Part shown: positions 19,287 to 36,492 of the stretch, in pieces
How positions within the stretch are numbered: position 1 is the stretch's first letter
Layout of the letters: each line of letters starts with the position of its first letter
DNA from: Chitinophagaceae bacterium
GTDB taxonomy: Bacteria > Bacteroidota > Bacteroidia > Chitinophagales > Chitinophagaceae
Direction: 5' to 3'
Length of the DNA: 64,000 bases
Assembly: GCA_019638595.1 (NCBI GenBank)
Contig: JAHBTJ010000003.1
Coordinates: 124,001-188,000, forward strand
The notes under the pieces: model-generated
Told to the model about the DNA's origin: nothing
Databases searched by the model: none
What the model saw: the letters and a program-made list of their open reading frames with translations, nothing else
Position numbers and translations under genes: made by a program

Positions 19287-19550
19287 CTACAAAAACGTAT
19301 CTAACTCATTTTTTTCTTTCCCTACAATCTCTTTTTCCAGCCATTTCGCGTCCCTGCTCTTAAAAACAATCAGGCTGTCCTCTTCTATATTCATGATCTC
19401 CTTTGCTTTGTACTGCAGCTCTTTCAGCTTCACTTCGGTTATATCGCCCTCAAATACACTATTCTGTATCCAATTAAGGTACTGACGGCACAATTTAAGC
19501 ATTTTGCCTACTCGTTTTTCGCCTATATCATATACCAGGATTACATACAT
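19287..19550 (-). CDS. cas2: CRISPR-associated endoribonuclease/integration subunit Cas2
   Basis: An 87-aa ferredoxin-fold protein with the N-terminal MYVILVYDIGEKRVGKML pattern, Asp8 being the conserved acidic residue. With Cas1 it forms the complex that inserts new spacers next to the leader. Last gene of the adaptation operon, 57 bases after cas1, and the cas gene closest to the leader. Confidence 0.95.
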   Translation of the reverse strand: MYVILVYDIGEKRVGKMLKLCRQYLNWIQNSVFEGDITEVKLKELQYKAKEIMNIEEDSLIVFKSRDAKWLEKEIVGKEKNELDTFL

Positions 19551-20612: not shown

Positions 20613-21043
20613 TTGTCTGAACCGGGATTTTGAGGATAATCAGATGATTGGGATGATATATATGCCGGATGTTTTTTATTGGTCAGTCTTTTATACTCCA
20701 GGCTTTTTGCACCAAAATTGAGCAGTAAACCGATTTCCAGGTTATACGCTTCTAAATAATTAATTGCTTGCGCCAGATGGACATCTTCCATTGTGATAAG
20801 AGCTTTTAACTCCACGCTGATAATACCCGTTACGAGGAAATCAACTCTTCTGGTACCAATATGTATTCCATCATAATAAATTGACATTTCAAACTCTCTC
20901 GAAAATTCAATATGGTGTTTCTTCATTTCAATTTCCAGTGCCCGCTGATAAATTACTTCCTGAAAACCATTGCCCAGGGTGTTATGCACTTTAAAGGCGC
21001 AGGCAATAATTTCTTTAGTCAATTCGGCATATTTCATAGTCAA
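20609..21043 (-). CDS. GxxExxY family protein (PD-(D/E)XK-like nuclease) inside the cas operon
   Basis: A 144-aa protein with the family motif GFQEVIY (G-x-x-E-x-x-Y, residues 26-32), and a downstream nuclease-like core RRVDFLVTGIISVELKAL (D...E-x-K). GxxExxY proteins are found alone in many environmental genomes and are taken to be PD-(D/E)XK enzymes; their role is not established. Here it sits between cas4 and cas1 and overlaps cas1 by four bases, so an assisting role in prespacer trimming is possible but unproven. The start may be Met3 at 21037. Confidence 0.88.
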   Translation of the reverse strand: MTMKYAELTKEIIACAFKVHNTLGNGFQEVIYQRALEIEMKKHHIEFSREFEMSIYYDGIHIGTRRVDFLVTGIISVELKALITMEDVHLAQAINYLEAYNLEIGLLLNFGAKSLEYKRLTNKKHPAYISSQSSDYPQNPGSDK

Positions 21044-21139: not shown

Positions 21140-21646
21140 TCAGACCTCTTCCACATAGCACAGCTCATAATAGCTGCAGCTTTTGCATATCCGGGCATTG
21201 ATCGCTGCCGGGCACTGATCTGAACTGACAATCTCCTTCACGTCCCTCATCCACCTTTCTATTTCCGGTACATCATCCTCATTCCAGGCTACAAGTTCCC
21301 GCTGCTTTAATTTCGGATACTCAATAATAGCTTCGGGGCCATCAATCCCGTTCCTCACCAGCACATACAGGTAGTATTTTACCTGGGCAAAATGCGCCTG
21401 CTCTACTTTATCTGACTTTTTTACTTCGTGGATGGTTTTATTCCCGGCATCGTAAAAGTCTATTTTAATGCCATCAATGGAAAGTTCGGTATATTTCCTG
21501 GCCCTGTCCAAATAAGTGGTTTCGGCGATCAACTTACCTTCCGATACGGTTTCGGAAGTATGTTCCATCTGTATGCCGTTGGCAAACAACCACAGCTTAC
21601 GATGACAGATGTGCAGGTAGGCGATATGGGTTCCGGTAACTTGCAT
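21140..21646 (-). CDS. cas4: CRISPR-associated exonuclease Cas4
   Basis: A 168-aa RecB-type nuclease with an iron-sulfur cluster site: Cys14 (HICHRKLWLF) and Cys154, Cys157, Cys163 (CKSCSYYELC). The catalytic core shows IDFYD and EVKKS. Cas4 trims prespacers and selects PAM-flanked ends before Cas1-Cas2 integration. It lies upstream of the GxxExxY-cas1-cas2 block, with about 96 bases between it and the next gene. Confidence 0.95.
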   Translation of the reverse strand: MQVTGTHIAYLHICHRKLWLFANGIQMEHTSETVSEGKLIAETTYLDRARKYTELSIDGIKIDFYDAGNKTIHEVKKSDKVEQAHFAQVKYYLYVLVRNGIDGPEAIIEYPKLKQRELVAWNEDDVPEIERWMRDVKEIVSSDQCPAAINARICKSCSYYELCYVEEV

Positions 21647-21789: not shown

Positions 21790-22206
21790 TTATAAATATC
21801 CCATTTCAGCAAGAAGTACCCTGATCTTTCTCCAATCCACATAAGGAGCTTTATGTTTTCCATATACCAAAGGACAGCCTACCGTTTTATCGTCAATCAT
21901 AATATGTCCATAGGCCTTTGGAGAAGCAGTCCAGGCATCCTGCGTGGGATGCTTTTGAATACCGTACAGCGGAATATCGTATTGCCTGAACCAGTTGATG
22001 GCATCAGTGAGGTAGTTTCCCGGCTGGTGGGTAGTGCCGGGATCTTTGGTATGCGGCCTGTCCATATTTGAGCGCATGGTAAAAAGAATCAGGTTATGCC
22101 CGCATGCCACTAACTCTTTCAGCACCGGCACTGCGCCGATATCGTCACCCACCCCGGGAAATTCGTTGGTAACTACTGTCCCGTCAAAATCGAGAATAAT
22201 ATCCAT
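21790..22206 (-). CDS. HAD-like phosphatase
   Basis: A short HAD-fold protein with motif I LDFDGTVVTNE at the N-terminus, motif II FTMRSN, and a late acidic IMIDDKTVGCPLV (motif III/IV). I chose the Met at 22206 (MDIILDFDGT) over the upstream in-frame ATG at 22233 because it matches the family start. It resembles the small HAD phosphatases found in phage and bacterial genomes; substrate unknown. It lies downstream of the shared CRISPR operator promoter, ahead of cas4, so it is probably co-transcribed with the adaptation genes. Confidence 0.8.
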   Translation of the reverse strand: MDIILDFDGTVVTNEFPGVGDDIGAVPVLKELVACGHNLILFTMRSNMDRPHTKDPGTTHQPGNYLTDAINWFRQYDIPLYGIQKHPTQDAWTASPKAYGHIMIDDKTVGCPLVYGKHKAPYVDWRKIRVLLAEMGYL

Positions 22207-22251
22207 TGCACGCTTTTTATAAATGTAAATCAATGTTTGACTGATATGCGC

Positions 22252-22386
22252 TTACCGGGAGCATTGATAGACCAGGATGCTGAGCAGGACCACCAACGCT
22301 ATCACATGTCCAATATGTATTTCAAACTCCATATCAGCTTCACCGGTTTCGCGGTATCGCCGTAGCCATTCCTTTATCTTTTTCAT
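22252..22386 (-). CDS. Small single-pass membrane protein, first gene after the operator promoter
   Basis: A 44-aa ORF: charged N-terminus MKKIKEWLRRYRETGEADME, then one hydrophobic helix (HVIALVVLLSILVY) and short tail QCSR. It starts about 60 bases after the -7 box of the promoter at 22446-22453 and ends 45 bases before the HAD start. Unrecognised; the layout suggests it belongs to the adaptation operon. Confidence 0.6.
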   Translation of the reverse strand: MKKIKEWLRRYRETGEADMEFEIHIGHVIALVVLLSILVYQCSR

Positions 22387-22445: not shown

Positions 22446-22479
22446 CAAAATTATACCCAGCTACTGTCAACTTCTGTCA
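22446..22479 (-). promoter_or_regulatory. CRISPR operator-promoter P1 (adaptation operon)
   Basis: Minus strand, 5' to 3': TGACAG (22479-22474), four bases AAGT, TGACAG (22469-22464), ten bases, then the -7 box TAATTTTG (22453-22446). The same geometry recurs exactly at P2 and P3. The distal repeat overlies where a -33 element should be. It points at the small membrane protein, HAD, cas4, GxxExxY, cas1, cas2 run. Confidence 0.75.
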
Positions 22480-22483
22480 GCAG

Positions 22484-22545
22484 GAAGGTAAAATTGTAAG
22501 ACCGTAAAATGGTAAGACCGTGAGATTGTAAGATGTAAGGTCGCA
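22484..22545. repeat. Short degenerate tandem repeat; rest of the gap empty
   Basis: GTAAGACCGT recurs around GTAAGATG-like units (four or so imperfect copies, 11-17 bp apart). The wider gap 22387-22752 otherwise holds only P1 and no gene I can support. Confidence 0.5.
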
Positions 22546-22752
22546 AAGGGAGGGGATTGCGTTATTTTTCAATCCTGCCATCTCACCCAAAATTAATATT
22601 AAGCGGGGAAGCCTTTTTGCTACGTGGAGATAAGAAAAAAGACTGGCTATGTTATCTCTACCGGGATATTTTTACCTTTTCTTTTCAGTTTTGGTATGGA
22701 CAAGTGCCAATTATGTGATTTTTTCGCGTTTTTAGAAGTTATTGTGTGAAAT

Positions 22753-23217
22753 TTATCCGGAAACCGGGAGATCCGGCTTATTCCAAATTTCCAGGCAGGG
22801 GCAGTATTCTTTCAGCTCACATCCGGGCGCGTAGCCGGTACAGTAATCAAAGCCGATGTTGCCATGATCCACCACCATAAATGGCTTATTGAGCATACCG
22901 ACCATAAAGCCATATTTTATGTGCAGGGGCATCTTTTTCGGCAGGTCCAGACTGGCGTTCCAACTGCTTAACATGCGGGAGAAGGCATCCCATATAATGC
23001 GTAATTCCTTTTGTGTAAACTGCCCTGGCGGCGGAAAATTTTGCGACTCCAGTCCGCTGTAATAGCCAAGTGTGTGCTCTTCCATCTCACCCGCTACCCA
23101 GCGTTCAATTTCCTCAAAATGCACTTTAAGGGATTGTTCATGCTGTTGCGGCGGCTCACTGGTTGAGCGGTGGGCCGCTGCGATATCGGCAAGGAGGTGT
23201 GGAAGATAGGGGTGCAT
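22753..23217 (-). CDS. Hypothetical protein with cysteine-rich C-terminus
   Basis: A 154-aa soluble protein, mostly helical, ending CTGYAPGCELKEYCPCLE with four Cys and a nearby YGFMVGMLNKPFMVV segment. The Cys pattern could bind metal. I do not recognise the family. Its first 12 codons lie in a 38-bp repeat whose second copy sits on the far side of the AbiE pair (24933-24970), so the AbiE genes look inserted at its 5' end. Confidence 0.65.
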   Translation of the reverse strand: MHPYLPHLLADIAAAHRSTSEPPQQHEQSLKVHFEEIERWVAGEMEEHTLGYYSGLESQNFPPPGQFTQKELRIIWDAFSRMLSSWNASLDLPKKMPLHIKYGFMVGMLNKPFMVVDHGNIGFDYCTGYAPGCELKEYCPCLEIWNKPDLPVSG

Positions 23218-23219
23218 GG
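23182..23219. repeat. 38-bp direct repeat, left copy, flanking AbiE cassette 1
   Basis: Matches 24933-24970 at 34 of 38 positions in the same orientation. Together the copies bracket the toxin-antitoxin pair at 23230-24872. Confidence 0.8.
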
Positions 23220-23229
23220 TGGAAAAAAT

Positions 23230-24087
23230 TTAAAATATTTCAATGAAAAAGTTCCTTAATTCATCAATTACCTTCCCGCTTTCCACCCACATTCCTTTTG
23301 GCAACTGGTGCTTCAACCTGTATTCCCAACTATTATTTGCCTGTATTATACGATCTTCCCGGAAGAAATCGCCCGGTTCCTGAAATGAGATATTTTTAAA
23401 GCTGCATTTTTCCAGAAAAACCTTTTTCACTATATCCCAATCTATATCGGAAATATTGTTCTTAATGTACCAGAGGTCATAATAATCTCTTGCTTCTCCA
23501 CGGTTGCGTTGAAGCAATGAGCGCATTTTTTCGGCTAATATTTCGTGTATGGAGTAACATGGCACTTGTGTTGTAATAAGCTGCCTGTCGCTGTAAGGAT
23601 GAATAATGTCACGGGTTTCGCTTTCCAGCAACTGAAGCTCATGGCTTCTTGCATCAGATTCAATGAACGTATGACAATGTTCCCTGAAAACCGGAACTTC
23701 ATTCCTTCGATGATTAGCGCCCCAAAAGCATATCTTAATATCCCATCCCACGAAATTGTTCTTAAAAAATACTTCATCAAACGTCAGCAGGTTAAACAAA
23801 AGGCCTGTTCTGCCAGAAATATCTTTGCACACATTTATGATATCGTCCTCTGTCAACTTAAAACTTTTGTCTATGATGGTTAAATCTATATCTTCCGAGA
23901 AACGGTAGGAATCGAAGTAGCATTTTTTTAAACAGGTACCTCCTTTAAATAAAAACTTTTCTTTTGCCCAATGTTGTGCAAAAAGCCCGTTCAGGAAATG
24001 TCCTATCACATAATCTTTGTCAATGGTATTAGCCGGCACTTCTAATTGTTCGGCAAATTGCTGTATTTCCTTTTGGAGTATTTTCAT
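23230..24087 (-). CDS. AbiEii/AbiGii-type nucleotidyltransferase toxin
   Basis: A 285-aa nucleotidyltransferase of the type IV toxin class. The signature is FKGGTCLKKCYFDSYRFSEDIDLTII: GG-x-x-L followed by SEDIDL, whose acids bind metal, and later VPCYSIHEILAEKMRSLLQR and EARDYYDLW, typical of the family. Characterised members modify tRNA ends or other acceptors to stop growth after phage infection. It overlaps its antitoxin partner by one base. Confidence 0.9.
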   Translation of the reverse strand: MKILQKEIQQFAEQLEVPANTIDKDYVIGHFLNGLFAQHWAKEKFLFKGGTCLKKCYFDSYRFSEDIDLTIIDKSFKLTEDDIINVCKDISGRTGLLFNLLTFDEVFFKNNFVGWDIKICFWGANHRRNEVPVFREHCHTFIESDARSHELQLLESETRDIIHPYSDRQLITTQVPCYSIHEILAEKMRSLLQRNRGEARDYYDLWYIKNNISDIDWDIVKKVFLEKCSFKNISFQEPGDFFREDRIIQANNSWEYRLKHQLPKGMWVESGKVIDELRNFFIEIF

Positions 24088-24872
24088 CAGTACAGGTTAT
24101 TGGCAACAGACAAAATACTTTGTTCGCTGATATTCAGCCTGAGTTTCCACTTGTTTATATGCACTCCCTCATTCCTGCCTGCGGCATCAAAAAGTGAATA
24201 CCGTTCATTCACCTTAGCTAAAGCATAAGCGATAAAATGATCAGTGTCTTCCTTTTTAAACAGTTCAGCTAAATAGCCCATCCTTTTTATGGCAGAGATG
24301 TTGTCAACCGCACTGCAATAAGTTATCAGTTTTGCAGCATCCAGCCTGGTTTTTACAAAAGCTCTTACCAGTTCGTCAAATCCCCCGGAATATTCAGGCA
24401 GATCAAAACAGTCAACGATTGTTTTTTCTTTGTCGGTGATCCGGAACTGATTATTACCATAGCCCTGCCTTTCAATACCAATCATTTTGACGCTTTTTAC
24501 CTTTACGAATTTATAAGTAACCCCAAACACGGTTGTTGCTTTTTTTTGCCTCGCGGTTTGTACAAAAATGGTATTGGGAAATTGCTCTGTAAGTCCGTGA
24601 AGGTTTAAGGCCGTCCAGTAAGCAATTACGCCGTTTTCGGCTAAAAAGTTGCCGGTAACATATTCGTTGCGGAAATTATGACGGCAATACTTTCCCCGCT
24701 CAATAATATCTATCAACCCGTATTTGATAAGGGTGCGAAGTTGTGGCATCCAGTCCGCCAGTTTCAGTTTGGCCCTTTCTGCAAAAGACTGGCTGGTAAA
24801 GATGTCTAATTCGTATTCATCTAACAGTTTTAATAATGCATCAGGGGTTGATATTACCTTTTGTGGTACCAT
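24087..24872 (-). CDS. AbiEi-like antitoxin / transcriptional regulator
   Basis: A 261-aa protein with an N-terminal winged helix (RAKLKLADWMPQLRTLIKYGLIDIIERGKYCRH) and a C-terminal half with VTYKFVKVKSVKMIG and ITDKEKTIVDCFDLPEYSGG, the AbiEi pattern. These proteins repress their own operon and counter the paired nucleotidyltransferase. Immediately upstream of and overlapping the toxin gene. It does not belong to the CRISPR operons by motif: its own weak -7-like box (TAATATTG) lies just before the ATG. Confidence 0.87.
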   Translation of the reverse strand: MVPQKVISTPDALLKLLDEYELDIFTSQSFAERAKLKLADWMPQLRTLIKYGLIDIIERGKYCRHNFRNEYVTGNFLAENGVIAYWTALNLHGLTEQFPNTIFVQTARQKKATTVFGVTYKFVKVKSVKMIGIERQGYGNNQFRITDKEKTIVDCFDLPEYSGGFDELVRAFVKTRLDAAKLITYCSAVDNISAIKRMGYLAELFKKEDTDHFIAYALAKVNERYSLFDAAGRNEGVHINKWKLRLNISEQSILSVANNLY

Positions 24873-24932
24873 AATGCAATATTAGGGTATTTTGATAATA
24901 TAAAAGGTTATTTTTTAACTTAGCTGCCGGTT

Positions 24933-24970
24933 GATGTCGGCAAGGAGGTGGGGGAGATAGGGGTGTATGG
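24933..24970. repeat. 38-bp direct repeat, right copy, flanking AbiE cassette 1
   Basis: Partner of 23182-23219 (four mismatches). It is a stranded copy of the start of the gene at 22753-23217, lying just downstream of cas3. Confidence 0.8.
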
Positions 24971-24984
24971 AGGATGTTTATAGG

Positions 24985-27282
24985 TTACACAATGCCTTCA
25001 TCTACATCCTTCTCAATGGAAAAGTATCCAACGATCGGGTCATACTTTAAATTAATAGCAACCAATGTATCGCCATATAGCTTTTCTCTTGATAACTCAG
25101 GTTCATAATTATAAACCTGCACCAAAAGTTGATTAGCTTCTAAAAATCTTCTTTCAACTATTTTCTGTTTGTATTCTTCTTGAAGATTAAAACATAGCAC
25201 CTCAATCTTTTGATTGTTGTTTTTCAGAATGTCTTCCACCCAATCTCGCCAGTGACCTGCTATCCAGTCTCCCTCGAATTGATTAATAATTGAATTGTTT
25301 AAACCATTCTTAAAATCCTTCTGCTGTTCTTCATTATAACCATCTTTGTAAACAAGGTTACAAACATTGATTAAATCGTCTTCCCCTAATTCACAGTTAT
25401 TAAGTTTTGATAATTCATTCCAAGTATCCTCCAGAACCTTACTATCATAGAATGGAGTATTACCGATTGACTTCTCAAATACATACACAGGAACAGTGTC
25501 ATTTTGAAGATTTGCTTCTCTGTCAATCGGAACTATCCTTTTCTTGCCGGCTCTGTTGATTCTACCAAAACGTTGTATCAAAGCATCAATGGGAGCATTT
25601 TCCATAAAAGCAATATCATAGTCTATATCCAAACTGACTTCTACGGCTTGGGTTGCTATCAGTAATTGAGGACGTAAAGAAGCGTCTTTATTGGTAATGG
25701 ATTTCTCAATTATTGTCCGGTCTCTTTTATTAAATCCACTATGTAAAAGCTGTACTGAACTTTCAAATTCTATTTCCCTATACAGTTTTTGCGCAGTTTT
25801 TACATTGTTTACAATGATTAAAACAGATCTGCCTGCTTCTAAATAGTTTTTAATCAATCCAATTTCATCTCCAATTGTAGCATTGTTCATACAATACAAC
25901 TGATGCCTTTTTCTGTCCAATACAATTCTGTCCTGCTCTTTCATTTTGTCTGGACGAATGAGCTTTCCCTTGTCCCCCTCGTAGATTGTGTCAATAATGA
26001 GCTCCAACATAAAGTCGGGAATGGTTGCAGACAAAAAGAAAAATTGAGCATTAAATAATCTTCTGTATAATTTTATCGTTGATAAAAGCATTCCCGTCAA
26101 TAAAGCATCATAAGTATGAAATTCATCAATGATAAATAAGGCATTTTTATAGTCAAACAATGCAAACTCCCAACCTTTTCCTTTCAGGGATGTTTTTAAA
26201 ATCTGTTGTAGTGTAGCCACTTTTATCGGATAGAACAATTCTTTGGAAAGCGATTTTTTGTTCTTTGCTTCTTGTTCTATCTTTTGATAATCTCTCTCAT
26301 TATTGCTGTATTCTTCTGAAATCTGTTCGTAGAAAAAATCCAAAGTTTTTGAGTGTAAAGCGGTAACAACTTCTTCGTTGTAATGCGCTTGTAATCGGCC
26401 AACCATCGCATTGATGCTTGCCGTATAAGGTAACAGGTAAAATACTCTGGAATTTTCGGTTTGATTTGCAAATACCCAATTCAATGCAGCTTCTGTTTTT
26501 CCTGAGCCGGTAGGAGCATGCAAAATAACATCTGTTTTTACTTGCCGTAAGCGTTCCTGAAAGGGTCGAAAAGGGAAATATATACCATCTTTATTTGGCT
26601 GAAAATCCTTTAGTTCAAGCTGTTTATACTTAGGAATATCGTTTTCCTTTCTTGCAGAGCCTAAATGGTCTGCGGCTATCAACAAAGCTCTGTTTAGAGA
26701 TAATTGTTTTCGGTTCTTGTATTCTGGCAATGCTTTTACTTGATATTTTGCATTTAACAGCATCATAAACTCCTTTGGCAGCTTTTTTACGGAACCTCGT
26801 TCAATTGTCTCTATATTTAGCCCGAAAATCTGTACCCAGTCCAGCACATTCTTTCTTTGAAAAATTGAAGCATCAGCATCATGCCATTGCTCAAGGTATT
26901 CACTGATTTGATTAGGCGATAAAGTCCCCTTTGTTTCAGAATGTGTATCTACAACTCCTTTATGATGCGTAGCAATTGCAAATAGTTCATCATCTTCCAA
27001 CTGCAAATAATTAATGCAAAACAAAAGTGATACTAATTCGTGTCGAATATTCCCACCTCTATTTCCATTCAGCCTACTGACAAATTCTCTATGTATCTTA
27101 CCTATATCGTGCAACACAGCACATCTAAATAGCTTCTCTTCCCAATATATTCTCTCTTCTTCACTTAAAGGAAGCGAAAGTAATAGGTTTCTCCCGGCCG
27201 TAATAACATGCCGGGTGTGCATTTCGAGTGTGGTAATACCATCGCTCTTCGCAAAGAAACGGTCAAAATAGCTGTTATTCAT
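24985..27282 (-). CDS. cas3: CRISPR-associated helicase-nuclease Cas3
   Basis: A 765-aa protein joining an N-terminal HD nuclease (AVLHDIGKIHREF with His58-Asp59; ATHHKGV near 111) and a superfamily 2 helicase (Walker A APTGSGKTEAALNW, DEFH box in IIDEFHTYDAL, SATIP, and QRFGRINRAGKKR as motif VI). Cas3 is recruited by Cascade to unwind and degrade the target DNA. Its start overlaps cas5 by eight bases. It is last in the interference operon, ending before the stranded 38-bp repeat. Confidence 0.97.
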   Translation of the reverse strand: MNNSYFDRFFAKSDGITTLEMHTRHVITAGRNLLLSLPLSEEERIYWEEKLFRCAVLHDIGKIHREFVSRLNGNRGGNIRHELVSLLFCINYLQLEDDELFAIATHHKGVVDTHSETKGTLSPNQISEYLEQWHDADASIFQRKNVLDWVQIFGLNIETIERGSVKKLPKEFMMLLNAKYQVKALPEYKNRKQLSLNRALLIAADHLGSARKENDIPKYKQLELKDFQPNKDGIYFPFRPFQERLRQVKTDVILHAPTGSGKTEAALNWVFANQTENSRVFYLLPYTASINAMVGRLQAHYNEEVVTALHSKTLDFFYEQISEEYSNNERDYQKIEQEAKNKKSLSKELFYPIKVATLQQILKTSLKGKGWEFALFDYKNALFIIDEFHTYDALLTGMLLSTIKLYRRLFNAQFFFLSATIPDFMLELIIDTIYEGDKGKLIRPDKMKEQDRIVLDRKRHQLYCMNNATIGDEIGLIKNYLEAGRSVLIIVNNVKTAQKLYREIEFESSVQLLHSGFNKRDRTIIEKSITNKDASLRPQLLIATQAVEVSLDIDYDIAFMENAPIDALIQRFGRINRAGKKRIVPIDREANLQNDTVPVYVFEKSIGNTPFYDSKVLEDTWNELSKLNNCELGEDDLINVCNLVYKDGYNEEQQKDFKNGLNNSIINQFEGDWIAGHWRDWVEDILKNNNQKIEVLCFNLQEEYKQKIVERRFLEANQLLVQVYNYEPELSREKLYGDTLVAINLKYDPIVGYFSIEKDVDEGIV

Positions 27283-27955
27283 TTATAAATTCATGCAAAT
27301 AAAATGATACCGCTTTTGCTGCCTTAGTTTGATAAATGCTATTAAATTCCACTTCCATATCGTTGTCATGAGGTATTGATATAAATACCTTTGATGCTTG
27401 TGGAGTTCTACCGGAACCCACATTCTCATTTTCAAGATAAGACTCTGCTAACTGTACCAACTGTCCGCCTGCTTGCAACCCTGCCGAGAAGGGTAATAAA
27501 GAGCCTCCCAGACCCCCCTTATCTACTTTTTCAACCTCAACTATCGAAACATCGTCTATTTTTAAAATATCTTGTGAACGACCTAATGAGGGTGTTCCCA
27601 CAGGATTTTCAAAATACGCTTTCCAGTCTAATCGGTCAATCCATATTGTCAGCTTTGGCGAAGTATGAAACTCTCTTGTATAAGCATCCGTCCCTTTACT
27701 GTGCTGTTTTACTTTTCTGCCGTCATATTCCAAACGTTGTCTTGTTTCCAGATCCTGGGCAATAGTATCATAAGCATATTTGAATCCTATTCTGACTTCT
27801 TTGGATAAAACAATTCTGCCCAAACAGCATCCAATGATTCCCAATACCAAAGAATAACTTGGCGTATGCATGCAAACAGCATTACCGGAAAGTACAAAAG
27901 GTAATCGAGGAGTAGCCGTCCATCCTGAAAATTGTATTTCCAGTAATTTATCCAT
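27275..27955 (-). CDS. cas5: Cascade subunit Cas5 (type I-B)
   Basis: A 226-aa RAMP protein whose opening MDKLLEIQFSGWTATPRLPF and glycine-bearing YSLVLGIIGCCLGR match I-B Cas5 (Cas5t-like). Cas5 caps the crRNA 5' handle in Cascade. It overlaps cas7 and cas3 by eight bases each, showing tight coupling. Confidence 0.92.
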   Translation of the reverse strand: MDKLLEIQFSGWTATPRLPFVLSGNAVCMHTPSYSLVLGIIGCCLGRIVLSKEVRIGFKYAYDTIAQDLETRQRLEYDGRKVKQHSKGTDAYTREFHTSPKLTIWIDRLDWKAYFENPVGTPSLGRSQDILKIDDVSIVEVEKVDKGGLGGSLLPFSAGLQAGGQLVQLAESYLENENVGSGRTPQASKVFISIPHDNDMEVEFNSIYQTKAAKAVSFYLHEFINE

Positions 27956-28976
27956 TCTTTAAATAATTTTGAGTGAACTGGTTTACGATTTCGATTGGCG
28001 ATGCCAAAATAAATCCGTCTTTTAATTTTTCATTGACTTCATCTTCATTTTGCAGGTAACCTTTTCTGAATCCAACGTAAATCGGCGTTGCTAATTTGTC
28101 TTTGTAATCCTTAGATAATTCAAGCAATAAATCAATGTTTAGAATCGGTTTTTCTCCTGTACCGATAAATAAATTATTGAAAATTGGGTTGGCTGATTCA
28201 AGGCCTGCAAGAATTAAAACTTTAGGAGACACGTCAGCGCCAAATGCCGCTTGCTTTGCTCCGCCTCGTAAATAGGCCAAGCCTTTCAATATACCGGCAG
28301 CATTGTTCTTCCTGTTTTCAACTGCATTTTTTAATTCATATCTGGAGAATCTTCCACCTAAATCAGATTTAATAAGCTTATCTGCGTGCTTTTCTACTAC
28401 CTCAGAAGATAGCTCTTGTTTACTGCCGAGATTATCATACACTCCTAAACGATAATATTCCAAATTGAAAAAACCTTCTAAGTGCGTTGAATAGAATTTT
28501 GTGGAATAAGGTAATGGTGTTCCTTCTTTCAAGTGAACAAATGCCTCATCTATATTTACTGTACGCATATTTTTTATGCCTTTCAGAATAGAAGATTTAA
28601 AAGGTGAAGTTCTTTGAACACTTTCTTCTCCCTTGGCTCCGGCTTTCATATACCCGAATAAATCGTCTTCTGGAAATTCGATAGGATTTAATTCTGTAGC
28701 GATTTTGTTTGTATTTCCTTTTTCAGAACCCTCTCCAATTGCTCGCAATTCACTCGGATTCCAGTTGTTTTCTTCGTTGGTGGTATCTCTCAGCCACCTT
28801 CTCCAGGACTGTGCTGATACATAAGGCACTTCTTCTGTTCTGTTGTTTATTTTTTCTTTATAGGTTTTAGGAATGACACGATTTTTGTCCTCCTGAACAC
28901 CTAAGCCTGCGCCGTTAAGGAAAGTTGCTGTTGCATCAATTAACAATGCCCCTGTAATGTTGTTTAATTTTGCCAT
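27948..28976 (-). CDS. cas7: Cascade backbone subunit Cas7 (Cst2/DevR family)
   Basis: A 342-aa protein with the Cas7/Cst2/DevR opening NNITGALLIDATATFLNGAG, then EVPYVSAQSWRRWLRD and LAYLRGGAKQAAFGADVSPKVLILAGL. Six or so copies line the crRNA spacer. It is 13 bases downstream of cas8 and overlaps cas5. Confidence 0.94.
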   Translation of the reverse strand: MAKLNNITGALLIDATATFLNGAGLGVQEDKNRVIPKTYKEKINNRTEEVPYVSAQSWRRWLRDTTNEENNWNPSELRAIGEGSEKGNTNKIATELNPIEFPEDDLFGYMKAGAKGEESVQRTSPFKSSILKGIKNMRTVNIDEAFVHLKEGTPLPYSTKFYSTHLEGFFNLEYYRLGVYDNLGSKQELSSEVVEKHADKLIKSDLGGRFSRYELKNAVENRKNNAAGILKGLAYLRGGAKQAAFGADVSPKVLILAGLESANPIFNNLFIGTGEKPILNIDLLLELSKDYKDKLATPIYVGFRKGYLQNEDEVNEKLKDGFILASPIEIVNQFTQNYLKNG

Positions 28977-28989
28977 AATAGATTAGATA

Positions 28990-31002
28990 TTAATTTGCGG
29001 TTATTAATAATTTTTCTTTTAAAGGTTGGATTGCTGTTTGTTTCAATAAAAATTTAATTGTCAATACACAAATATTCCAAGTATTATTTCCCAGCGGGTT
29101 GCTTAATAGGCCTTCTATTGTCCATTTGTCATCTTTGATTTGTTCATTATCTTTTACAAACTGATTGGTGTTGTAAACCATTTCGCTGAGCAAGGAATAA
29201 AAATCATCATTCTCTTTGATGATACTATTTACTGTTCCATTGAATTTATTGTAAGGCGGTTCGTCTGAATTTGGATTTTGATATTTAGTATAATAATAAG
29301 CCTGATAATCATTTACAAAAGATTGAATGCCCGCAACCCAGTTTTGAATGAGCCTGTCATCTTTTAATTCACTTTTCCATGATGTAAATTCAAATTCCTC
29401 CTGCTCAGGTTGAGAAAAGAATATTCTCAATAATTCATTTAAACCAAACTTCCTAAAGTTAAAATCTTCATCATAAAATATTTCAATTACATTTTCAAGC
29501 TCAATTTCAAATTCACCAAGAGTGTCAAGAATGATTCTAGTGAACCCTACTTTTGTGTATTCATTCGGATTAGTCAGGTTTGACTTTATTGTATTGATTT
29601 TTGTATCCGTTTGAATCAAACTAATTATCCATTTGCAGGCGTTATAAACTTTTGTTTTTAACACCTCAACTTTAGGCAGCTCATTATTATAAATTTTCTT
29701 TTGTGTAAAAAAATGAACCAGTTTATGTAATTGGTAATAGCTGTTTCTTATCGGCAGCTCGCTCTTACTATCTAAAATAAAAATCTGATGCTCCAGTCCC
29801 CATTCATTGTTTTCTGTTGCCTTAACTAAAACTATAAATAGTTCGACCCGGTATTCCGAATCGTTCCAGGCATCTGTTTTGGTTAATATTTTTTCAAATG
29901 CTTTCGATTTATATTTTTCTATTAATCCGGCAATGTATTTTGCATTTGGGATAAATTTGCTTTTATCTATTTCAGTATAATAAGCCTCCAGAAATTCCGG
30001 CGAAACACCGTCATATTCTACTTTCTTTTTTCCACTTCCAAATACATTCGGATACAACAAAAACCAATCTTTATTACCTTCCAGGGATTCGATAAAACTG
30101 TAAGCGCTTTCATTTCTCGACAAAATACCTTTCAGTTCATTTCCTATTTTAGAATTTTTATAAAGCCTTTGCAATTTCCTTATCAGGGAGTTAGGTACTC
30201 TGTCAATCTCGCAGCTTGCACCCGTACCGGAGTTAGAAAAACTCCACATGTTTAAGTCGGAATATTTCTCTTCAAAATCTTCCTTTTCTGTAAGAATATT
30301 CAATACTTTAATCAGGTAATCTCCTTTGGCAAAGTCCCTTACATTTTCTATGGGATCTTTCACAGAAACAGCCTGTATTTTCTCGGCTAGTATTTTGGTG
30401 TTGTCGGCTACCATTCCTCTCGTTAATTCAAAATTGGAAGAATCAACCAATAAGATACCTCCTTTGTACAACAACGCAGATAAAGGCAAAAATTGGAGAA
30501 TCGGAATGCATATCGGATGTATCTGCACCGTGAATTTTGCCTGGGGCAACGCCTGTGCATCTGAGCCTAAACCACCAATAAGCGGAAACCATGTTCGGCT
30601 AATGTTGGTGTCCTTACTTTTAATTTCTTTATCAGACAAACCAACCTTCTTCAATGCTAATTCATAAAGTTCACTAAAAGATGCTTTAAATTTCAAGCCG
30701 GATATTTCGCATATTCTTGATCCTTCGCTTTCAAAGTTTGAAATAATGGTATTAAAGAGAGATTCATAAATCTTATCGCCATTTGTTTTGTCATTATGTA
30801 AAGGCCCATTTTTTGTAAAAAGCATTGTATAACTTTTCAGGCGCTTATTGATTTCTTTCAAATCAATTTTATCATAAATATCCTTTAGCAAAGAGGGACT
30901 AATTTCTGAAACACTCTTCAACTTAGCCAATGCCTCAATAGTCATTAATGCATTGTTGAGCATCGCGTTACCGGTATATGTTTTAAATATTGTCATAATC
31001 AT
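28990..31002 (-). CDS. cas8: Cascade large subunit Cas8 (type I-B, Cst1-like)
   Basis: A 670-aa protein in the first position expected for the Tneap-type I-B operon. The N-terminal part matches Cst1 proteins (MTIFKTYTGNAMLNNALMTIEAL and FPLIGGLGSDAQALPQAKF). The family is named for two CxxC pairs; here only single Cys remain at those places (RICEISGLKF near residue 98 and GASCEIDRVP near 260), so the zinc site looks lost. Large subunits read the PAM and recruit Cas3. The ATG at 31002 (or Met3 at 30996) lies inside the preceding cysteine-rich ORF. Confidence 0.88.
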   Translation of the reverse strand: MIMTIFKTYTGNAMLNNALMTIEALAKLKSVSEISPSLLKDIYDKIDLKEINKRLKSYTMLFTKNGPLHNDKTNGDKIYESLFNTIISNFESEGSRICEISGLKFKASFSELYELALKKVGLSDKEIKSKDTNISRTWFPLIGGLGSDAQALPQAKFTVQIHPICIPILQFLPLSALLYKGGILLVDSSNFELTRGMVADNTKILAEKIQAVSVKDPIENVRDFAKGDYLIKVLNILTEKEDFEEKYSDLNMWSFSNSGTGASCEIDRVPNSLIRKLQRLYKNSKIGNELKGILSRNESAYSFIESLEGNKDWFLLYPNVFGSGKKKVEYDGVSPEFLEAYYTEIDKSKFIPNAKYIAGLIEKYKSKAFEKILTKTDAWNDSEYRVELFIVLVKATENNEWGLEHQIFILDSKSELPIRNSYYQLHKLVHFFTQKKIYNNELPKVEVLKTKVYNACKWIISLIQTDTKINTIKSNLTNPNEYTKVGFTRIILDTLGEFEIELENVIEIFYDEDFNFRKFGLNELLRIFFSQPEQEEFEFTSWKSELKDDRLIQNWVAGIQSFVNDYQAYYYTKYQNPNSDEPPYNKFNGTVNSIIKENDDFYSLLSEMVYNTNQFVKDNEQIKDDKWTIEGLLSNPLGNNTWNICVLTIKFLLKQTAIQPLKEKLLITAN

Positions 31003-31123
31003 CTTTATTTATAAACCTACAACTATTGCAGATTTCGCAGAAACGGTCACATTCTTCGCTATCTTTCAAACAATGAGCACAAGACAACTTTGGCTTATTA
31101 ATGAGCTTAGTGGCATTTACCAT
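30983..31123 (-). CDS. 46-aa cysteine-rich ORF overlapping the start of cas8
   Basis: ATG at 31123 opens a frame with six Cys in 21 residues: C15-A-H-C18, C25, C29-E-I-C32 and C35, then a short acidic tail. The stop lies 20 bases inside cas8, so the two are translationally coupled. A GAGAAAAG purine run precedes the ATG, and TATCTTTG (31140-31147, minus) is a candidate -7 box. The spacing is zinc-ribbon-like. I do not recognise it as a named cas gene; the mostly missing CxxC pairs of this Cas8 make a supplied zinc knuckle an attractive but untested idea. Confidence 0.55.
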   Translation of the reverse strand: MVNATKLINKPKLSCAHCLKDSEECDRFCEICNSCRFINKDDYDNI

Positions 31124-31486
31124 CTTTTCTCGTTTTCAGCAAAGATAGAAAAAATTATAAATCCTATTGTATTTTTATCCTAATATTTATTAAATTTACT
31201 TTTATCAATACACCCCGCTTTCGTATCTTTATGTTGGCTTTGTGATGTTCGGAATTTAAAAATTGTATTTTTTTCCTATATTTAACATAATCGTACCAAA
31301 TTCATAAGGCCATTTTTATTTACTTTATCTCTTATCCCCCCATTTCAAATCTCCCCATATTTCCTTCAAACCACTCACCCATCAAACTTCTTTGCTCCTT
31401 CATAACTGATCCCCAACTCATATTACCGAATATATTTTATTGTATCCACATAGCGCCGGTTCTTTCTTTTAGAAACTTTTAGCTAA

Positions 31487-31520
31487 CAAACTTACCTGCC
31501 ACAACTGTCAGTTTCTGTCA
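31487..31520 (-). promoter_or_regulatory. CRISPR operator-promoter P2 (interference operon)
   Basis: Minus strand: TGACAG (31520-31515), four bases AAAC, TGACAG (31510-31505), ten bases, TAAGTTTG (31494-31487). Same spacing as P1 and P3. It lies about 365 bases upstream of the cysteine-rich ORF and cas8. That leader (31124-31486) holds no gene I can support, only a 29-codon open frame at 31332-31421 (minus) and AT-rich sequence. Confidence 0.72.
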
Positions 31521-31691
31521 CTCTTTGATTTTTATTTTCCATTTCACCACAGCCCATTCCCTGCGCATTGTCAAATAAATGTAAGTAGTTAACCCCGGTA
31601 TAAGCACCTACGGAAATCCTGGCAGAAGAAATATAATTAATATTTTATTTCCAAAATGCGCTATATTTACTGCAAAACAGAAACAAAATAA

Positions 31692-32309
31692 GTGAATTTC
31701 CTGGAATTTAAGGATAAGATGTTTCCGCTTGCCTGCTTTAGCATTCACCAGGTATATGCCTGGAAGCCGGGGTTTGACAGGAATAATCTTACCCGCTGGA
31801 TACAAAAAGGCTACCTCGTCCGGCTGCGGCAGGGGTATTTTGCCTTCCCGGAATACAGGGGAAAGAATGATTACACGCTCTATTTTGCCAACCGCATATA
31901 CCGGCCTTCTTATATAAGCCTGCATACGGCGCTGGCTTTTTATGGCATCATACCCGAAGCTGTGGTACAGGTCACCAGCATAACATCACTGAAAACAGCT
32001 TCGTTTACCAATGATTTCGGAGAATACGCCTACCGGAATGTGAAAGAGCGCCTGATGTTCGGTTACGAATTAAAGCCAATAGCAAACCAGCTCGCCATAC
32101 AATTTGCATCGGTGGAAAAGGCGCTGCTTGACCTGTTGTACCTGTACCCGTTTTATAATACTATGCCCGAAATGGAAGCATTGCGACTGGATGAGGATTA
32201 CCTGCACCATGATCTGAAAAAAGAGCTGCTGCTGGAATATGCTGCAGCATTTCAAAGCAAAGCGATGGACCATAGGGTAAAGCTGCTTTTAAAAACATAT
32301 GGATTATGA
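31692..32309 (+). CDS. AbiEi-like antitoxin of cassette 2
   Basis: A 205-aa protein with a winged-helix N-terminus (IHQVYAWKPGFDRNNLTRWIQKGYLVRLRQGYFAF) and the AbiEi-like ANRIYRPSYISLHTALAFYGIIPEA plus SVEKALLDLLYL. The frame opens with GTG at 31692; ATG at 31719 is an alternative. Overlaps the toxin gene by four bases (ATGA). It points away from the cas8 operon, on the plus strand. Confidence 0.85.
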   Translation: MNFLEFKDKMFPLACFSIHQVYAWKPGFDRNNLTRWIQKGYLVRLRQGYFAFPEYRGKNDYTLYFANRIYRPSYISLHTALAFYGIIPEAVVQVTSITSLKTASFTNDFGEYAYRNVKERLMFGYELKPIANQLAIQFASVEKALLDLLYLYPFYNTMPEMEALRLDEDYLHHDLKKELLLEYAAAFQSKAMDHRVKLLLKTYGL

Positions 32310-33094
32310 TAAGCATAACGCAAATAAAAAATTATTTTCCGGCACAGATACGGGACAATGCAGCTTTTTACAAGTATATGCTTAAAGAGTATTTGCAGTT
32401 GCTGATACTGGACTACCTGTCGTCTACACATTATGTGCAGAAAATCGTTTTTATCGGCGGCACCAACCTTCGCCTGGTGAAGGGAATAGATCGCTTTTCT
32501 GAAGACCTGGATTTTGACTGTAAAAATTTTTCCGGACCGGAATTCAGGGAAATGACAGATAGCATTATCCTCTTCCTGGAACGTTCCGGCTGGCGGGTGG
32601 AAACAAGGGATAAGGACAATCCAAAGCTTACCGCTTTCAGGAGAAGTATTTATTTTCCTGAATTGTTGTTTGACATGGGATTGAGCGGGCATAAGGAAGA
32701 GCGCCTCATGGTAAAAGTGGAAGGTCAGGACCAGGGTATAACCTATGAGCCTGTAATGATAAACATAAGCGGCTGCGGCTTTTTTTTCCCTTTTCCTGTA
32801 CCCTCCGATGCTGTATTGTGCAGCATGAAGATAGCCGCTATGTTAGCCCGCTCCAAAGGACGGGATCTTTACGACCTGATGTTTTTGCTGGCACAGGCAA
32901 AACCCGACTATGATTTTCTGGCAAAGCGCTGCGGTATCAGCAACCTGCAGCAGTTGAAAGAAGTTGTCAAAGACCGGCTTACCACCATAGACCTCAAAGT
33001 AAAACAAAGAGATTTTGAGCACCTGCTTTTCAATAAGGCCAATAGTGAAAAAGTATTGCGTTTTGACAGTTTTATGAATTCGTTAAAAGAATAA
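32306..33094 (+). CDS. AbiEii-type nucleotidyltransferase toxin of cassette 2
   Basis: A 262-aa nucleotidyltransferase with VFIGGTNLRLVKGIDRFSEDLDFDCK (GG-x-x-L and SEDLDF) and SMKIAAMLARSKGRDLYDLMFLL, the AbiEii pattern. Divergent in sequence from the toxin at 23230-24087, so the two cassettes are probably independent acquisitions rather than a recent duplication. It may act as an infection-triggered growth arrest module. Confidence 0.9.
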   Translation: MISITQIKNYFPAQIRDNAAFYKYMLKEYLQLLILDYLSSTHYVQKIVFIGGTNLRLVKGIDRFSEDLDFDCKNFSGPEFREMTDSIILFLERSGWRVETRDKDNPKLTAFRRSIYFPELLFDMGLSGHKEERLMVKVEGQDQGITYEPVMINISGCGFFFPFPVPSDAVLCSMKIAAMLARSKGRDLYDLMFLLAQAKPDYDFLAKRCGISNLQQLKEVVKDRLTTIDLKVKQRDFEHLLFNKANSEKVLRFDSFMNSLKE

Positions 33095-33164
33095 TACCAT
33101 ACGTATAAAAATGACATCAGTCACCTTCCGGCACCTGTAGGTATGGAGCGTATTACATTTTTCG

Positions 33165-33250
33165 CAGGCGGGTGAAGACACCCGCCTGTAGAGCGCACTA
33201 CCGGTCGGTGCCCGCCCGGATGACCAGTCGGACGGGTCTCCACCGATCGG
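33165..33250. repeat. GC-rich double-hairpin element
   Basis: First hairpin: CAGGCGGGTG (33165-33174), AAGA loop, CACCCGCCTG (33179-33188), a perfect 10-bp stem. Second: CCGGTCGGTG (33201-33210) with CACCGATCGG (33241-33250), enclosing CCCGCCCG (33211-33218) with CGGACGGG (33229-33236); the few mismatches are G-T. It lies between convergent AbiEii and cas6. REP/BIME-like or a two-way terminator; GC content contrasts with neighbours. Confidence 0.7.
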
Positions 33251-33293
33251 AAAGCTTGCATAAAGCGAAGATTTGGAATACACCCTCACTGCC

Positions 33294-34100
33294 TTAATTT
33301 TTATGCTCCACCCCAACACACCCCATTCCCTGCGCATTATACACCCCGGCGCCCGCGTTCAACAACAACTCCACCGCCTCTCTCATCCCCTTCACGCTCA
33401 ACCTGAAATTCACGAATCCCCTGATCTTCGTTTCCGCCTCTGTGCCGGCCTTGATCCAGATCAATCTCGATTTCGGCGGGTTTTTGTAAAGCAGCACTTC
33501 CATCTCCGCCTTTTCAAAAACCGCATCCATATGTTCTTCCCCATACACCGCCTTGTATTTTTCTTTCCAGTTGTGCATCAACTGCGGGATAAACTCCGGT
33601 TGCTCCGGCGAGAGAAAAGTGTAATGCTTATTTTCATTTATGATGCCGCATACAACAGGCGATAAAGGCTGCAGCACCATTTCCTGCACAGGTTCACCGG
33701 TAAATCCGTTTGGTAATGCTTCCACACCGGTTACGCTAAACGCTACCCGGCTTTTCTTATCGGCTATTTCAATGCGCTGGTTCATAAAAAGCCCTTTTAC
33801 AAAGTTCTCCGACGCCTGCGGCAGGTGAAAGCATACCTGCAATTCTGCATGGGGGGTAAGCAGCAATAGCCTGTCGCCCTGTATTGTAAAAGGCGTTTTT
33901 AAATCGGAAAAAGTAAAGAGCTTAAATGCTTTTAAACTGCCTTCTTTTCTGTAACCCGTATCGTGGAGAAAAGCGGCATACGCCGCATCAGCATTGGCCA
34001 GAATTTTATAAATAACGGCGCTCAGCGGGTACTGGTAGTTTACCGGCAGCAAGGGTTTGTGTTGGTCGCTATGTAGTTTTAGCAGAAAGCGCATTTGCAA
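33294..34100 (-). CDS. cas6: CRISPR repeat endoribonuclease Cas6, copy 1
   Basis: A 268-aa RAMP nuclease that cuts the array transcript within repeats to leave the 8-nt handle. N-terminal MRFLLKLHS, Tyr31 (AVIYKIL), His46 (FLHDTGY) and Lys60 (KLFTFSD) align with the Tyr-His-Lys active site known for archaeal Cas6, and the C-terminus has the glycine-rich GAGVYNAQGMGC. Start may be Met3 at 34094. It lies downstream of operator-promoter P3. A close paralogue is at 36514-37320. Confidence 0.94.
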   Translation of the reverse strand: MQMRFLLKLHSDQHKPLLPVNYQYPLSAVIYKILANADAAYAAFLHDTGYRKEGSLKAFKLFTFSDLKTPFTIQGDRLLLLTPHAELQVCFHLPQASENFVKGLFMNQRIEIADKKSRVAFSVTGVEALPNGFTGEPVQEMVLQPLSPVVCGIINENKHYTFLSPEQPEFIPQLMHNWKEKYKAVYGEEHMDAVFEKAEMEVLLYKNPPKSRLIWIKAGTEAETKIRGFVNFRLSVKGMREAVELLLNAGAGVYNAQGMGCVGVEHKN

Positions 34101-34112
34101 TTTTAAAAATTA

Positions 34113-34295
34113 TTATCCTGTTAACTCCAGTACTTTCTTTGCCTCCTCTAATATTTTCTTTTGCGGCAGTACAATTTGCTTTTCATATTGGGCCACCAGG
34201 CCCACTTTTGGCAATTTCCCATTCTTCAGGTCATGCCTGAGGTAGTTATACAACCATATATCCTGCCATATGACTACAAACCTACAGCGCTCCAC
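34113..34295 (-). CDS. Doubtful 60-aa ORF between P3 and cas6
   Basis: The frame reads well in its second half (KLPKVGLVAQYEKQIVLPQK, KILEEAKKVLELTG), like coding sequence, but its ATG overlaps the P3 promoter and lies upstream of the predicted start of transcription. It could be a remnant, or start at a non-ATG codon further in. Not recognised. Confidence 0.3.
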   Translation of the reverse strand: MERCRFVVIWQDIWLYNYLRHDLKNGKLPKVGLVAQYEKQIVLPQKKILEEAKKVLELTG

Positions 34296-34310
34296 TGTCA
34301 GCTTCTGTCA
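34277..34310 (-). promoter_or_regulatory. CRISPR operator-promoter P3 (cas6)
   Basis: Minus strand: TGACAG (34310-34305), four bases AAGC, TGACAG (34300-34295), ten bases, TAGGTTTG (34284-34277). Identical layout to P1 and P2. It overlaps the stop codon of the WYL regulator and faces cas6 copy 1, about 180 bases downstream. Confidence 0.75.
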
Positions 34311-35239: not shown

Positions 35240-36436
35240 TCAATACCCCATCCCCAGCATCCACAACGGCACCTTTGTACCTATGCCTGTTTCAATATCA
35301 TCTGCTGCTATCATATAGTTGCCTTTACTTTTTACCTGCCGGGCCGTTTTGCTTTTACCGCCAACTTCAATAAGCATATCGTTTACCAAAAAATCGCCTG
35401 AGGCGGGCAGGCTTACAGCATGCTTTTGGTTTACCAGTTGATTCAGTAAAAACGTTTCCCGGATGTTTCCCACATCCGGGGCAGCCTGCAGCGCATATAA
35501 GAGGCTGGTATTTTCGAGATACAATTTCTCCGGCTTTTGCAGTGCAGACACACCTTTGGTGGAACTATGCAGCAGGTTAAGCAGGCGCGCCCGCTGCAGG
35601 TGCTGCATCCACGCGTATATATATTCCCTGCCTGCATCCAGCCTGCGCGATAGTTCTGACACGTTGGGTTTAAATGGTACTGAAGCCGCCAGCACGCCCA
35701 GCAGCTTTTTTATTTTAAAGGCAGTAGCAACGGTATAGGATTCTGCATAACTTAAATCGGTTTCTATAATGGTGTTTATGATCTGGCTGATGCGGGATGG
35801 AATTTCTTCGGTATTGCTTTCGGTAAAAATGGGCAGGTAGCCCCAGCGCAGGTATTTTTTAAACCAGGGCAACGGCTGTAGCTGCTGTAATACCGCGGTG
35901 CTGATAGCTGCGTGATCTTTTATAATATCGTTCAGGGAATAAACGTTGGGAAAACGGAACCCCTGCAACACCAAAAACTCCCTGAAGGAAAGCCCCGGCA
36001 ACTCGTAAGTGATCACCCGCCTGCTCAGATCTGCCTCGCCCCGGTAAATGTCCAACGCTGAAGAGGATGAAAAAACAATACGCAGTTGCGGGTATCCGTC
36101 ATATATATTTTTCAGTTCGCGCGACCAGTTAGGGTATTTATGTACCTCATCTATAAACAGGTAACGCCCGCCATTTTTATAAAACCGGTCAGCCGTTTCC
36201 ACCAGGTTATGGGTATAAAACCAGTAATGATCTGCCGTAACATACAGCGATTCTTCCCGCGGTGCTTTTAAGCGGTATTTTATATACTGTAGCATAAGGG
36301 TGGTTTTACCAGTGCCTCGTGCGCCTTTTATGGCAAGCATCCGTTGGTTCCAGTTTAAATCATCGAGCAGATAGCGAAAGAAGGAGTCGTTCACCTGGCT
36401 CATCAGATTGTCCTGGAATTCATATAATATATCCAT
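35240..36436 (-). CDS. AAA+ ATPase with DUF4143-type C-terminus
   Basis: A roughly 398-aa ATPase: Walker A KGARGTGKTTLMLQYI, Walker B YLFIDEVHKYPNW, sensor IVFSSSSALDIY, arginine finger region SRRVITYELPGLSFREFL, and a C-terminal DUF4143-like winged helix plus restriction-endonuclease-like lid (DFLVNDMLIEVGGKSK). I chose Met at 36436 (MDILYEFQ). Members of this group are common in defence islands with unclear roles. Two inverted-repeat operators lie directly upstream. Confidence 0.88.
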   Translation of the reverse strand: MDILYEFQDNLMSQVNDSFFRYLLDDLNWNQRMLAIKGARGTGKTTLMLQYIKYRLKAPREESLYVTADHYWFYTHNLVETADRFYKNGGRYLFIDEVHKYPNWSRELKNIYDGYPQLRIVFSSSSALDIYRGEADLSRRVITYELPGLSFREFLVLQGFRFPNVYSLNDIIKDHAAISTAVLQQLQPLPWFKKYLRWGYLPIFTESNTEEIPSRISQIINTIIETDLSYAESYTVATAFKIKKLLGVLAASVPFKPNVSELSRRLDAGREYIYAWMQHLQRARLLNLLHSSTKGVSALQKPEKLYLENTSLLYALQAAPDVGNIRETFLLNQLVNQKHAVSLPASGDFLVNDMLIEVGGKSKTARQVKSKGNYMIAADDIETGIGTKVPLWMLGMGY

Positions 36437-36441
36437 AATAA

Positions 36442-36492
36442 TGTATTTTATAAAATACAAAATTATATATAAAATGTATTTTTATTAATACA
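36442..36492. promoter_or_regulatory. Two copies of an inverted-repeat operator before the AAA+ gene
   Basis: TGTATT, six bases, AATACA occurs at 36442-36459 (a perfect 18-bp palindrome, TGTATTTTATAAAATACA) and again at 36475-36492. Spacing is 33 bases centre to centre, about three helical turns. The region spans the gap between the AAA+ start and the cas6 copy 2 stop, so it most likely controls the AAA+ gene. Confidence 0.65.

Follow-up and report, generated by a model that had tools for sequence, protein, structure and literature searches.

A conserved operator linked to a WYL regulator gene at three cas promoters of a Chitinophagaceae type I-B CRISPR locus

Among the described WYL regulators, DriD of Caulobacter crescentus and PafBC of mycobacteria are reported as activators that act with the housekeeping sigma factor and are switched by single-stranded DNA. 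The DriD operator, of consensus ATACGAC(X)7GTCGTAT, lies over the -35 region and at one distance from the -10 element in its promoters (PMC12340889), and the P1 consensus of PafBC promoters is tTGTCRgtg-8nt-TannnT (PMC5656591). SiwR of Mycobacterium smegmatis is another WYL activator, in which the double substitution R38A-R42A abolished the promoter response (PMC10693628). BrxR and CapW are described as repressors of the phage-defence systems that they adjoin (PMC9122601, PMC9122588), Sll7009 of Synechocystis, as cited in PMC9122601, represses a CRISPR (clustered regularly interspaced short palindromic repeats) I-D locus, and those WYL regulators that have been examined in defence systems to date are stated to be repressors (PMC10693628). 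A term search of a 2023 review of CRISPR regulation (PMC10013973) returned no mention of WYL proteins or of Bacteroides-type bacteria, and open-licence articles in PubMed Central held, among the matches listed, no paper on the operator described below or on a WYL activator of CRISPR. Here we analyse a window of 64,000 nucleotides (nt) from a Chitinophagaceae bacterium (contig JAHBTJ010000003.1, positions 124,001 to 188,000), which carries a type I-B CRISPR locus with a gene for a WYL protein of 300 amino acids (aa). The operator found at three promoters of this locus is real, conserved and linked to the WYL gene, and it probably co-ordinates three cas units.

The original prediction had placed three minus-strand sites of the form TGACAG-N4-TGACAG-N10-TAnnTTTG upstream of one cas unit each, the third overlapping the stop codon of the WYL gene, and had read them as one WYL-controlled CRISPR regulon. 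The coordinates, strand, spacings, gene order and overlap are all as claimed (Table 1). With up to three mismatches allowed, the 34-nt pattern has three matches in the window, all with no mismatch, against a mean of 0.06 in shuffled sequence. A genome-wide motif scan had been set as the refutation test, and the matches are few: in 7.06 Mb, the exact pattern is found three times, at the three window sites. TGACAG-N4-TGACAG alone occurs five times in the genome, three of them at these sites, and the relaxed pattern TGAC-N5-Y-TGNCA-N11-TAnnTTTG with at most one mismatch returns the three exact sites and one match with a single mismatch (three matches in the reversed control). The small number of genome-wide matches points to a local rather than a global regulon. 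The in-sample scores of the three sites in a position weight matrix (PWM) fall to 37.4 (site 1), 35.6 (site 3) and 33.3 (site 2) when each is left out. The PWM scan showed no fourth site in the window, the next score being 15.1, at a position overlapping site 2 on the opposite strand (reversed control up to 12.7), and no operator either upstream of the stretch formed by cas6 copy 2, the ATPase and the WYL gene or between cas2 and the CRISPR array.

The site accompanies the WYL gene in other genomes as well. Relatives of the WYL protein at E 1e-20 or better are present in 11 of 294 genomes of the family. All seven relatives at 41-56% identity (window genome excluded) carry a similar site directly behind the WYL stop codon, as the predicted conservation required, and six of them adjoin cas6 in the fetched stretch, the seventh (G256) being without a cas gene there. 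The exact 34-nt pattern as a family-wide query gave no match in the 293 other genomes; it is too strict, because related sites differ by one or two letters. A scan of species genomes gave 50 WYL loci, nearly all from Bacteroidota and including the contigs of these seven relatives, with copies or near copies among them (L039/L040, L073/L074, L045/L046 and L062/L063); in viral contigs, WYL relatives were not found. Matches to window proteins that resemble cas genes occur in 22 of the 50 loci, a few of them to cas3 alone, at 23-25% identity. By in-sample scores, a site above the control maximum (15.5 over 1.56 million reversed positions) is present in 21 of these 22 loci and in 17 of the 28 others. 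The early collection of sites omits L040 (a copy of L039) and the partial loci L077 and L079.

Scoring by letters alone gives the same picture. An operator with at least eight of nine letters lies in the region from -40 to about +160 relative to the stop codon in 30 of 47 WYL genes (L040, a copy, and L057, L077 and L079, near a contig end, were dropped), and all 30 have the -7 box at the identical gap. Among 555 other open reading frames (ORFs) of the same loci, 23 have the operator letters and two have the box, both being sites counted elsewhere (L034 and L052). The first TGA of the operator is the WYL stop codon itself in 10 of 35 non-window sites (offset -3). In none of six loci that have a related Cas7 and lack this WYL gene does a site rise above noise (best 11.6). 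One of them, G226, has Cas7, Cas1 and Cas8 that are 87%, 85% and 71% identical, and carries a WYL protein of another kind elsewhere in its genome; Cas7 of the other five is 29-33% identical. The link between the operator and the WYL gene is thus strongly supported at the sequence level, and rarity together with conservation beside WYL genes supports the reading of one WYL-linked CRISPR regulon.

The distance to the -7 box is invariant. TAnnTTTG (at least five of six letters) starts 11 nt after operator position 15 in 38 of 38 sites, and other gaps from 0 to 31 give 0-2 each. These 38 sites are of mixed selection (29 by letters at eight of nine or more, five with seven of nine, L034 via a full-PWM scan and the three window sites), and the cleaner figure is that of the sites selected purely by letters, 30 of 30. 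Since TAnnTTTG occupies -12 to -5 in Flavobacterium (PMC9723704), the operator is predicted to span about -38 to -24, over the place of the -33 element. In this arrangement the sites agree with those of DriD/PafBC-type activators, which cover the -35/-26 region and keep a constant spacing to the -10 or -7 box.

The paired TGACAG that was first described is correct for the three window sites, but not as a definition. Over 47 sites the core is TGAC-N7-GWCA, with A (28 sites), G (11) or T (8) at position 13, and the G that closes the second TGACAG is not a general feature. Among 38 sites, G2, C4, T11, G12 and C14 are invariant and position 3 is A in 37. A perfect direct repeat was dropped as the definition, as positions 13 and 16 vary outside the window's lineage; judged from the aligned sites, the paired-TGACAG "direct repeat" is one lineage's look of TGAC-N7-GWCA. 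Leave-one-out PWM scores are 12.5 (L066) and 17.2 for the weakest sites and 18.8-37.4 for the remaining ones. Nine further sites outside the PWM training score 17.0-33.8, all above the control maximum; eight are located 58-324 nt before an ORF and that of L055 854 nt before one.

Two positions of the operator change together. C15 is present in four of five sites with G1 and in none of the 42 without it, probably through one event on the tree. In L035, L036 and L043, T1>G with A15>C coincides with Ala in place of Glu at residue 36, within the recognition helix. This joint change favours inverted symmetry of the site and the WYL protein as its reader, but it is likely a single event. The WYL gene of L043 (9962-10160) seems to be frame-shifted between the helix-turn-helix (HTH) and WYL domains, and both operators of that locus read GGAC..GACC.

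The 300-aa protein matches WYL at 25.9 bits (cut-off 21.8), WCX at 26.1 (23.9) and HTH_11 at 25.9 (25), as well as the PADLOC model of CRISPR-associated WYL proteins, PDLC01457, at 1.2e-19, with cas neighbours present. The Foldseek ranking by E-value places DriD (1.5e-12) and PafBC (4.2e-12) before BrxR (5e-8) and CapW (3e-7), and the best sequence match in the PDB is PafBC (2.9e-9). The structure model has a mean predicted local distance difference test value of 86.7 and a predicted template modelling (TM) score of 0.58. The HTH is intact, with R37 and R41 of the recognition helix nearly invariant, and R187 in the WYL domain is invariant across 44 alignment rows; the alignment omits L034, L040, L043, L063, L073, L076, L077 and L079 as copies, partial genes or broken frames. 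The type I-B assignment of the locus follows from matches to Cas8b, Cas7b, Cas5b and Cas3.

DriD shares with this protein the order of HTH, three-helix, WYL and WCX parts and a site over the -35 region, as far as its published description goes. Its GAC-N7-GTC core is close to that of the present operator, in which G2, C4, G12 and C14 are kept while position 13 varies. DriD differs in controlling SOS-independent DNA-damage genes rather than immune operons as in the source genome, and the operator described here differs from that of DriD in its Bacteroidota -7 box, in its outer letters and in a second half-site that is more often GAC or GGC than GTC. The proximal half of the present operator, TTGWCAgtg, and its 17 nt to TA equal the P1 consensus of PafBC (from the first t of P1, compared with position 10 to position 27 here). 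PafBC is a heterodimer in which the PafB HTH alone is described as reading DNA, whereas the source locus has one gene product and two conserved half-sites. SiwR acts on an imperfect palindrome that lies in the gap separating its gene from the neighbouring operon it controls, within the interval from -35 to -10; its reported target is a DinB-like gene pair and not a defence system.

These comparisons suggest that the WYL protein is probably a dedicated local activator of the type I-B system, similar to DriD and PafBC and working through the three-site operator. A WYL dimer would read the 15-bp TGAC-N7-GWCA with one TGNCA pentamer per subunit, the two lying 10 bp apart on one helix face. The bound operator would cover the position that the weak -33 element of Bacteroidota takes, with the invariant 11 nt to TAnnTTTG. 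The WYL protein would then act like DriD and PafBC, keeping sigma-A RNA polymerase at promoters that lack a -33 element, and cas6, cas8-7-5-3 and cas4-1-2 would be switched on together. Our confidence differs between the parts of this proposal. We are highly confident that the WYL protein binds the operator. Activation rather than repression is quite likely, and that single-stranded nucleic acid is the signal, by analogy with DriD, PafBC and SiwR, is an even call. The original prediction offered both activation and repression; the invariant phase to the -7 box leans towards the former and leaves repression less favoured. An activator is favoured because the phase is invariant, the operator lies over the -33 region, and DriD and PafBC are the top structural matches; a phase kept in distant relatives would be expected from contact with RNA polymerase and not from mere blocking.

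The operator is not confined to CRISPR loci of one kind. It accompanies I-B cas genes (L031 and L052), type I restriction (L046), Wadjet (L068) and Cas9 (L059), and therefore tracks the WYL gene and not cas; L046 and L059 belong to the cultured Breznakibacter xylanolyticus DSM 6779. The CRISPR regulon of the original prediction holds for the source genome, but the operator itself is not CRISPR-specific. In a motif-first search of 395 genomes of the phylum, two divergent matches in G488 head a co-directional operon that runs from HsdM to HsdR and ends with the WYL gene of L064, 13 kb away. The blind search thus located a site for a locus that had earlier seemed to be without one. Divergent pairs were also seen in the Wadjet locus, where WYL-type promoters at L068:9969 (-) and 10902 (+) face away on both sides of the WYL gene, and in L168, where those at 9928 (+) and 9974 (-) face away and overlap where a type I restriction operon begins. 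With a little less than even confidence, we suggest a portable immunity switch of Bacteroidota: one family of WYL activators sensing single-stranded DNA or RNA, with a fixed-phase promoter and the housekeeping polymerase, may have been added to unrelated defences (CRISPR I-B, Cas9, type I restriction and Wadjet), so that these would be induced rather than de-repressed, by nucleic acid from phage replication or DNA damage. The base-level operator and its phase to the -7 box allow WYL-linked immune operons to be predicted from sequence in Bacteroidota, and make directly testable whether single-stranded DNA switches immunity on.

Several observations weigh against activation by the WYL protein through this operator. 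Among the 50 loci, 12 have no site above the control in the DNA examined (L041, L042, L047, L050, L056, L062, L063, L064, L075, L077, L078 and L079); the sequence of L077 and of L079 stops at the WYL gene, and L064 is the locus resolved above. The site of L066 falls under the control when it is left out, and three WYL relatives at 27-30% identity have neither a site nor a cas gene in the fetched stretch. The motif-first search gave 37 matches against 16 in its control, and 20-kb stretches around matches in six other genomes hold no WYL gene of this family. Among the 34 matches outside the source genome, 17 precede recA (13 loci), rmuC (two) or recC (two) in one other family, f24, where a WYL gene of this kind is absent up to a distance of 1.5 kb; the letters alone, therefore, do not name the regulator. 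(These genes were named by their N-terminus, and one recA, both rmuC and one recC were checked with Pfam.) For the protein, TM scores to full DriD chains are 0.40-0.44, with root-mean-square deviations of 14-20 A, and BrxR is close at 0.34-0.39. With agreement this loose, the fold ranking rests on the E-values, and the kinship with DriD is one of domains and not of exact arrangement. DriD is also absent from the PDB sequence search at E 1. The letters of the operator give no preference for an inverted repeat: over 47 sites the direct repeat scores slightly higher (4.06 against 3.81 of 5), the two being inseparable by letters because TGNCA is self-complementary, and an inverted repeat is not claimed as proved. 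A missing -33 element was likewise rejected as strong proof of activation, as the baseline is weak: of 70 further TAnnTTTG boxes in these loci, no more than 19% have TTG at 17-22 nt, compared with 0 of 38 operator sites. Finally, a perfect -7 box (TATCTTTG, 31140-31147) without an operator ends 16 nt upstream of the start codon (ATG) of the Cys-rich ORF. It is a possible second promoter of the cas8 unit by its letters, so that the WYL protein need not be the sole switch of that unit.

The f24 loci (L102-L107, L111, L113-L118, L110 and L122-L124) have the word TGACA-N5-TGNCA at the usual distance from TAnnTTTG, and a WYL gene with a similar HTH is present in nine of nine f24 genomes searched. 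From 25 f24 recA loci taken, 22 were readable; 11 have at least eight of nine letters, and seven of these 11 also show the box at gap 11. The arms seem to be one base wider apart in some other loci. The recA, rmuC and recC set is possibly an SOS-independent damage regulon.

Repression is the alternative that survives best, and we consider it unlikely. The WYL protein would cover the -33 region until a ligand released it, in the manner of BrxR, CapW and Sll7009; the last also has its WYL gene at a type I CRISPR locus, and BrxR and CapW likewise adjoin diverse phage-defence systems. An operator at -38 to -24 would block polymerase as well. A repressor, however, requires no fixed phase, whereas the gap is kept in every site, including all those chosen by letters. 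The published operators of BrxR and CapW are also of another kind and position: the CapW palindrome overlaps the -10 element and that of BrxR is an 11-bp repeat with a 5-bp spacer, whereas the present operator has the letters TGAC-N7-GWCA and is separated from the -7 box by 11 nt. BrxR and CapW, moreover, stand behind the activators DriD and PafBC in the fold E-values.

A second alternative, that the site is bound by another regulator and the WYL protein is linked otherwise, for instance as a Cas accessory like WYL1 of type VI-D, is improbable. The occurrence of the same word at the f24 promoters speaks for it, but the site goes with the WYL gene in systems of unrelated kinds, and related loci that lack this gene lack the site too. 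The HTH is also intact, its near-invariant R37 and R41 corresponding, by spacing alone, to the two arginines on which the SiwR response depended (PMC10693628), and the operator change at positions 1 and 15 co-occurs with that at residue 36, although probably as one event.

CreR-type regulation is repression by Cascade through a guide resembling CRISPR RNA, and its targets here would include Cas6 and Cascade genes. It was rejected as extremely improbable: no spacer matches the three promoter regions over more than 11 nt (9-13 in shuffled promoters), and the best repeat-like stretch outside the array in the window is a single 19/29 match at 61256. That the three sites arose by chance, or by recent passive copying of a single sequence, has next to no probability, for although site 2 follows a relic of the cas6 3' end, which shows that the DNA around it was rearranged, the flanks differ between sites and relatives keep the core while the spacer letters vary.

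Table 1. Predicted WYL-type promoters and genes of the CRISPR locus, in window coordinates
Feature	Coordinates	Strand	PWM score	Details
WYL-type promoter 1	22446..22479	(-)	38.7	operator 22465-22479; -7 box TAATTTTG at 22446-22453; downstream: 44-aa membrane ORF, HAD-like ORF, cas4, GxxExxY, cas1, cas2
WYL-type promoter 2	31487..31520	(-)	35.4	operator 31506-31520; -7 box TAAGTTTG at 31487-31494; downstream: Cys-rich ORF, cas8b, cas7b, cas5b, cas3
WYL-type promoter 3	34277..34310	(-)	37.6	operator 34296-34310; -7 box TAGGTTTG at 34277-34284; target: cas6 copy 1; overlaps WYL stop codon
CRISPR array, 64 repeats	14946..19079	(.)		no operator between array and cas2
cas2	19287..19550	(-)		
cas1	19608..20612	(-)		
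GxxExxY protein	20609..21043	(-)		
cas4	21140..21646	(-)		
HAD-type ORF	21790..22233	(-)		BT0820 family match 51 bits, under curated cut-off of 165
44-aa ORF	22252..22386	(-)		one hydrophobic stretch; first gene after promoter 1
cas3	24985..27282	(-)		
cas5b	27275..27955	(-)		
cas7b	27948..28976	(-)		
cas8b	28990..31002	(-)		match 5.7e-200
46-aa ORF, 7 Cys	30983..31123	(-)		first gene of cas8 unit; overlaps cas8 start
cas6 copy 1	33294..34100	(-)		downstream of promoter 3
WYL regulator, 300 aa	34298..35200	(-)		winged HTH (recognition-helix R37, R41), WYL, WCX
AAA_14/DUF4143 ATPase	35240..36460	(-)		between cas6 copy 2 and WYL gene
cas6 copy 2	36514..37320	(-)		upstream of WYL gene, same orientation; no operator upstream

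The cas6 relic that adjoins site 2 is 45 nt long (31525-31569) and 82% like 33294-33338. An AbiEi/AbiEii pair on the opposite strand (31692-33094) lies between this relic and cas6 copy 1. Another AbiEi/AbiEii pair sits between cas3 and the adaptation unit, where a 42-nt direct repeat (88%; 23182-23223 and 24933-24974) borders it on both sides. The repeats of the CRISPR array form three blocks by length, of 31 nt (14 repeats), 30 nt (8) and 29 nt (42).

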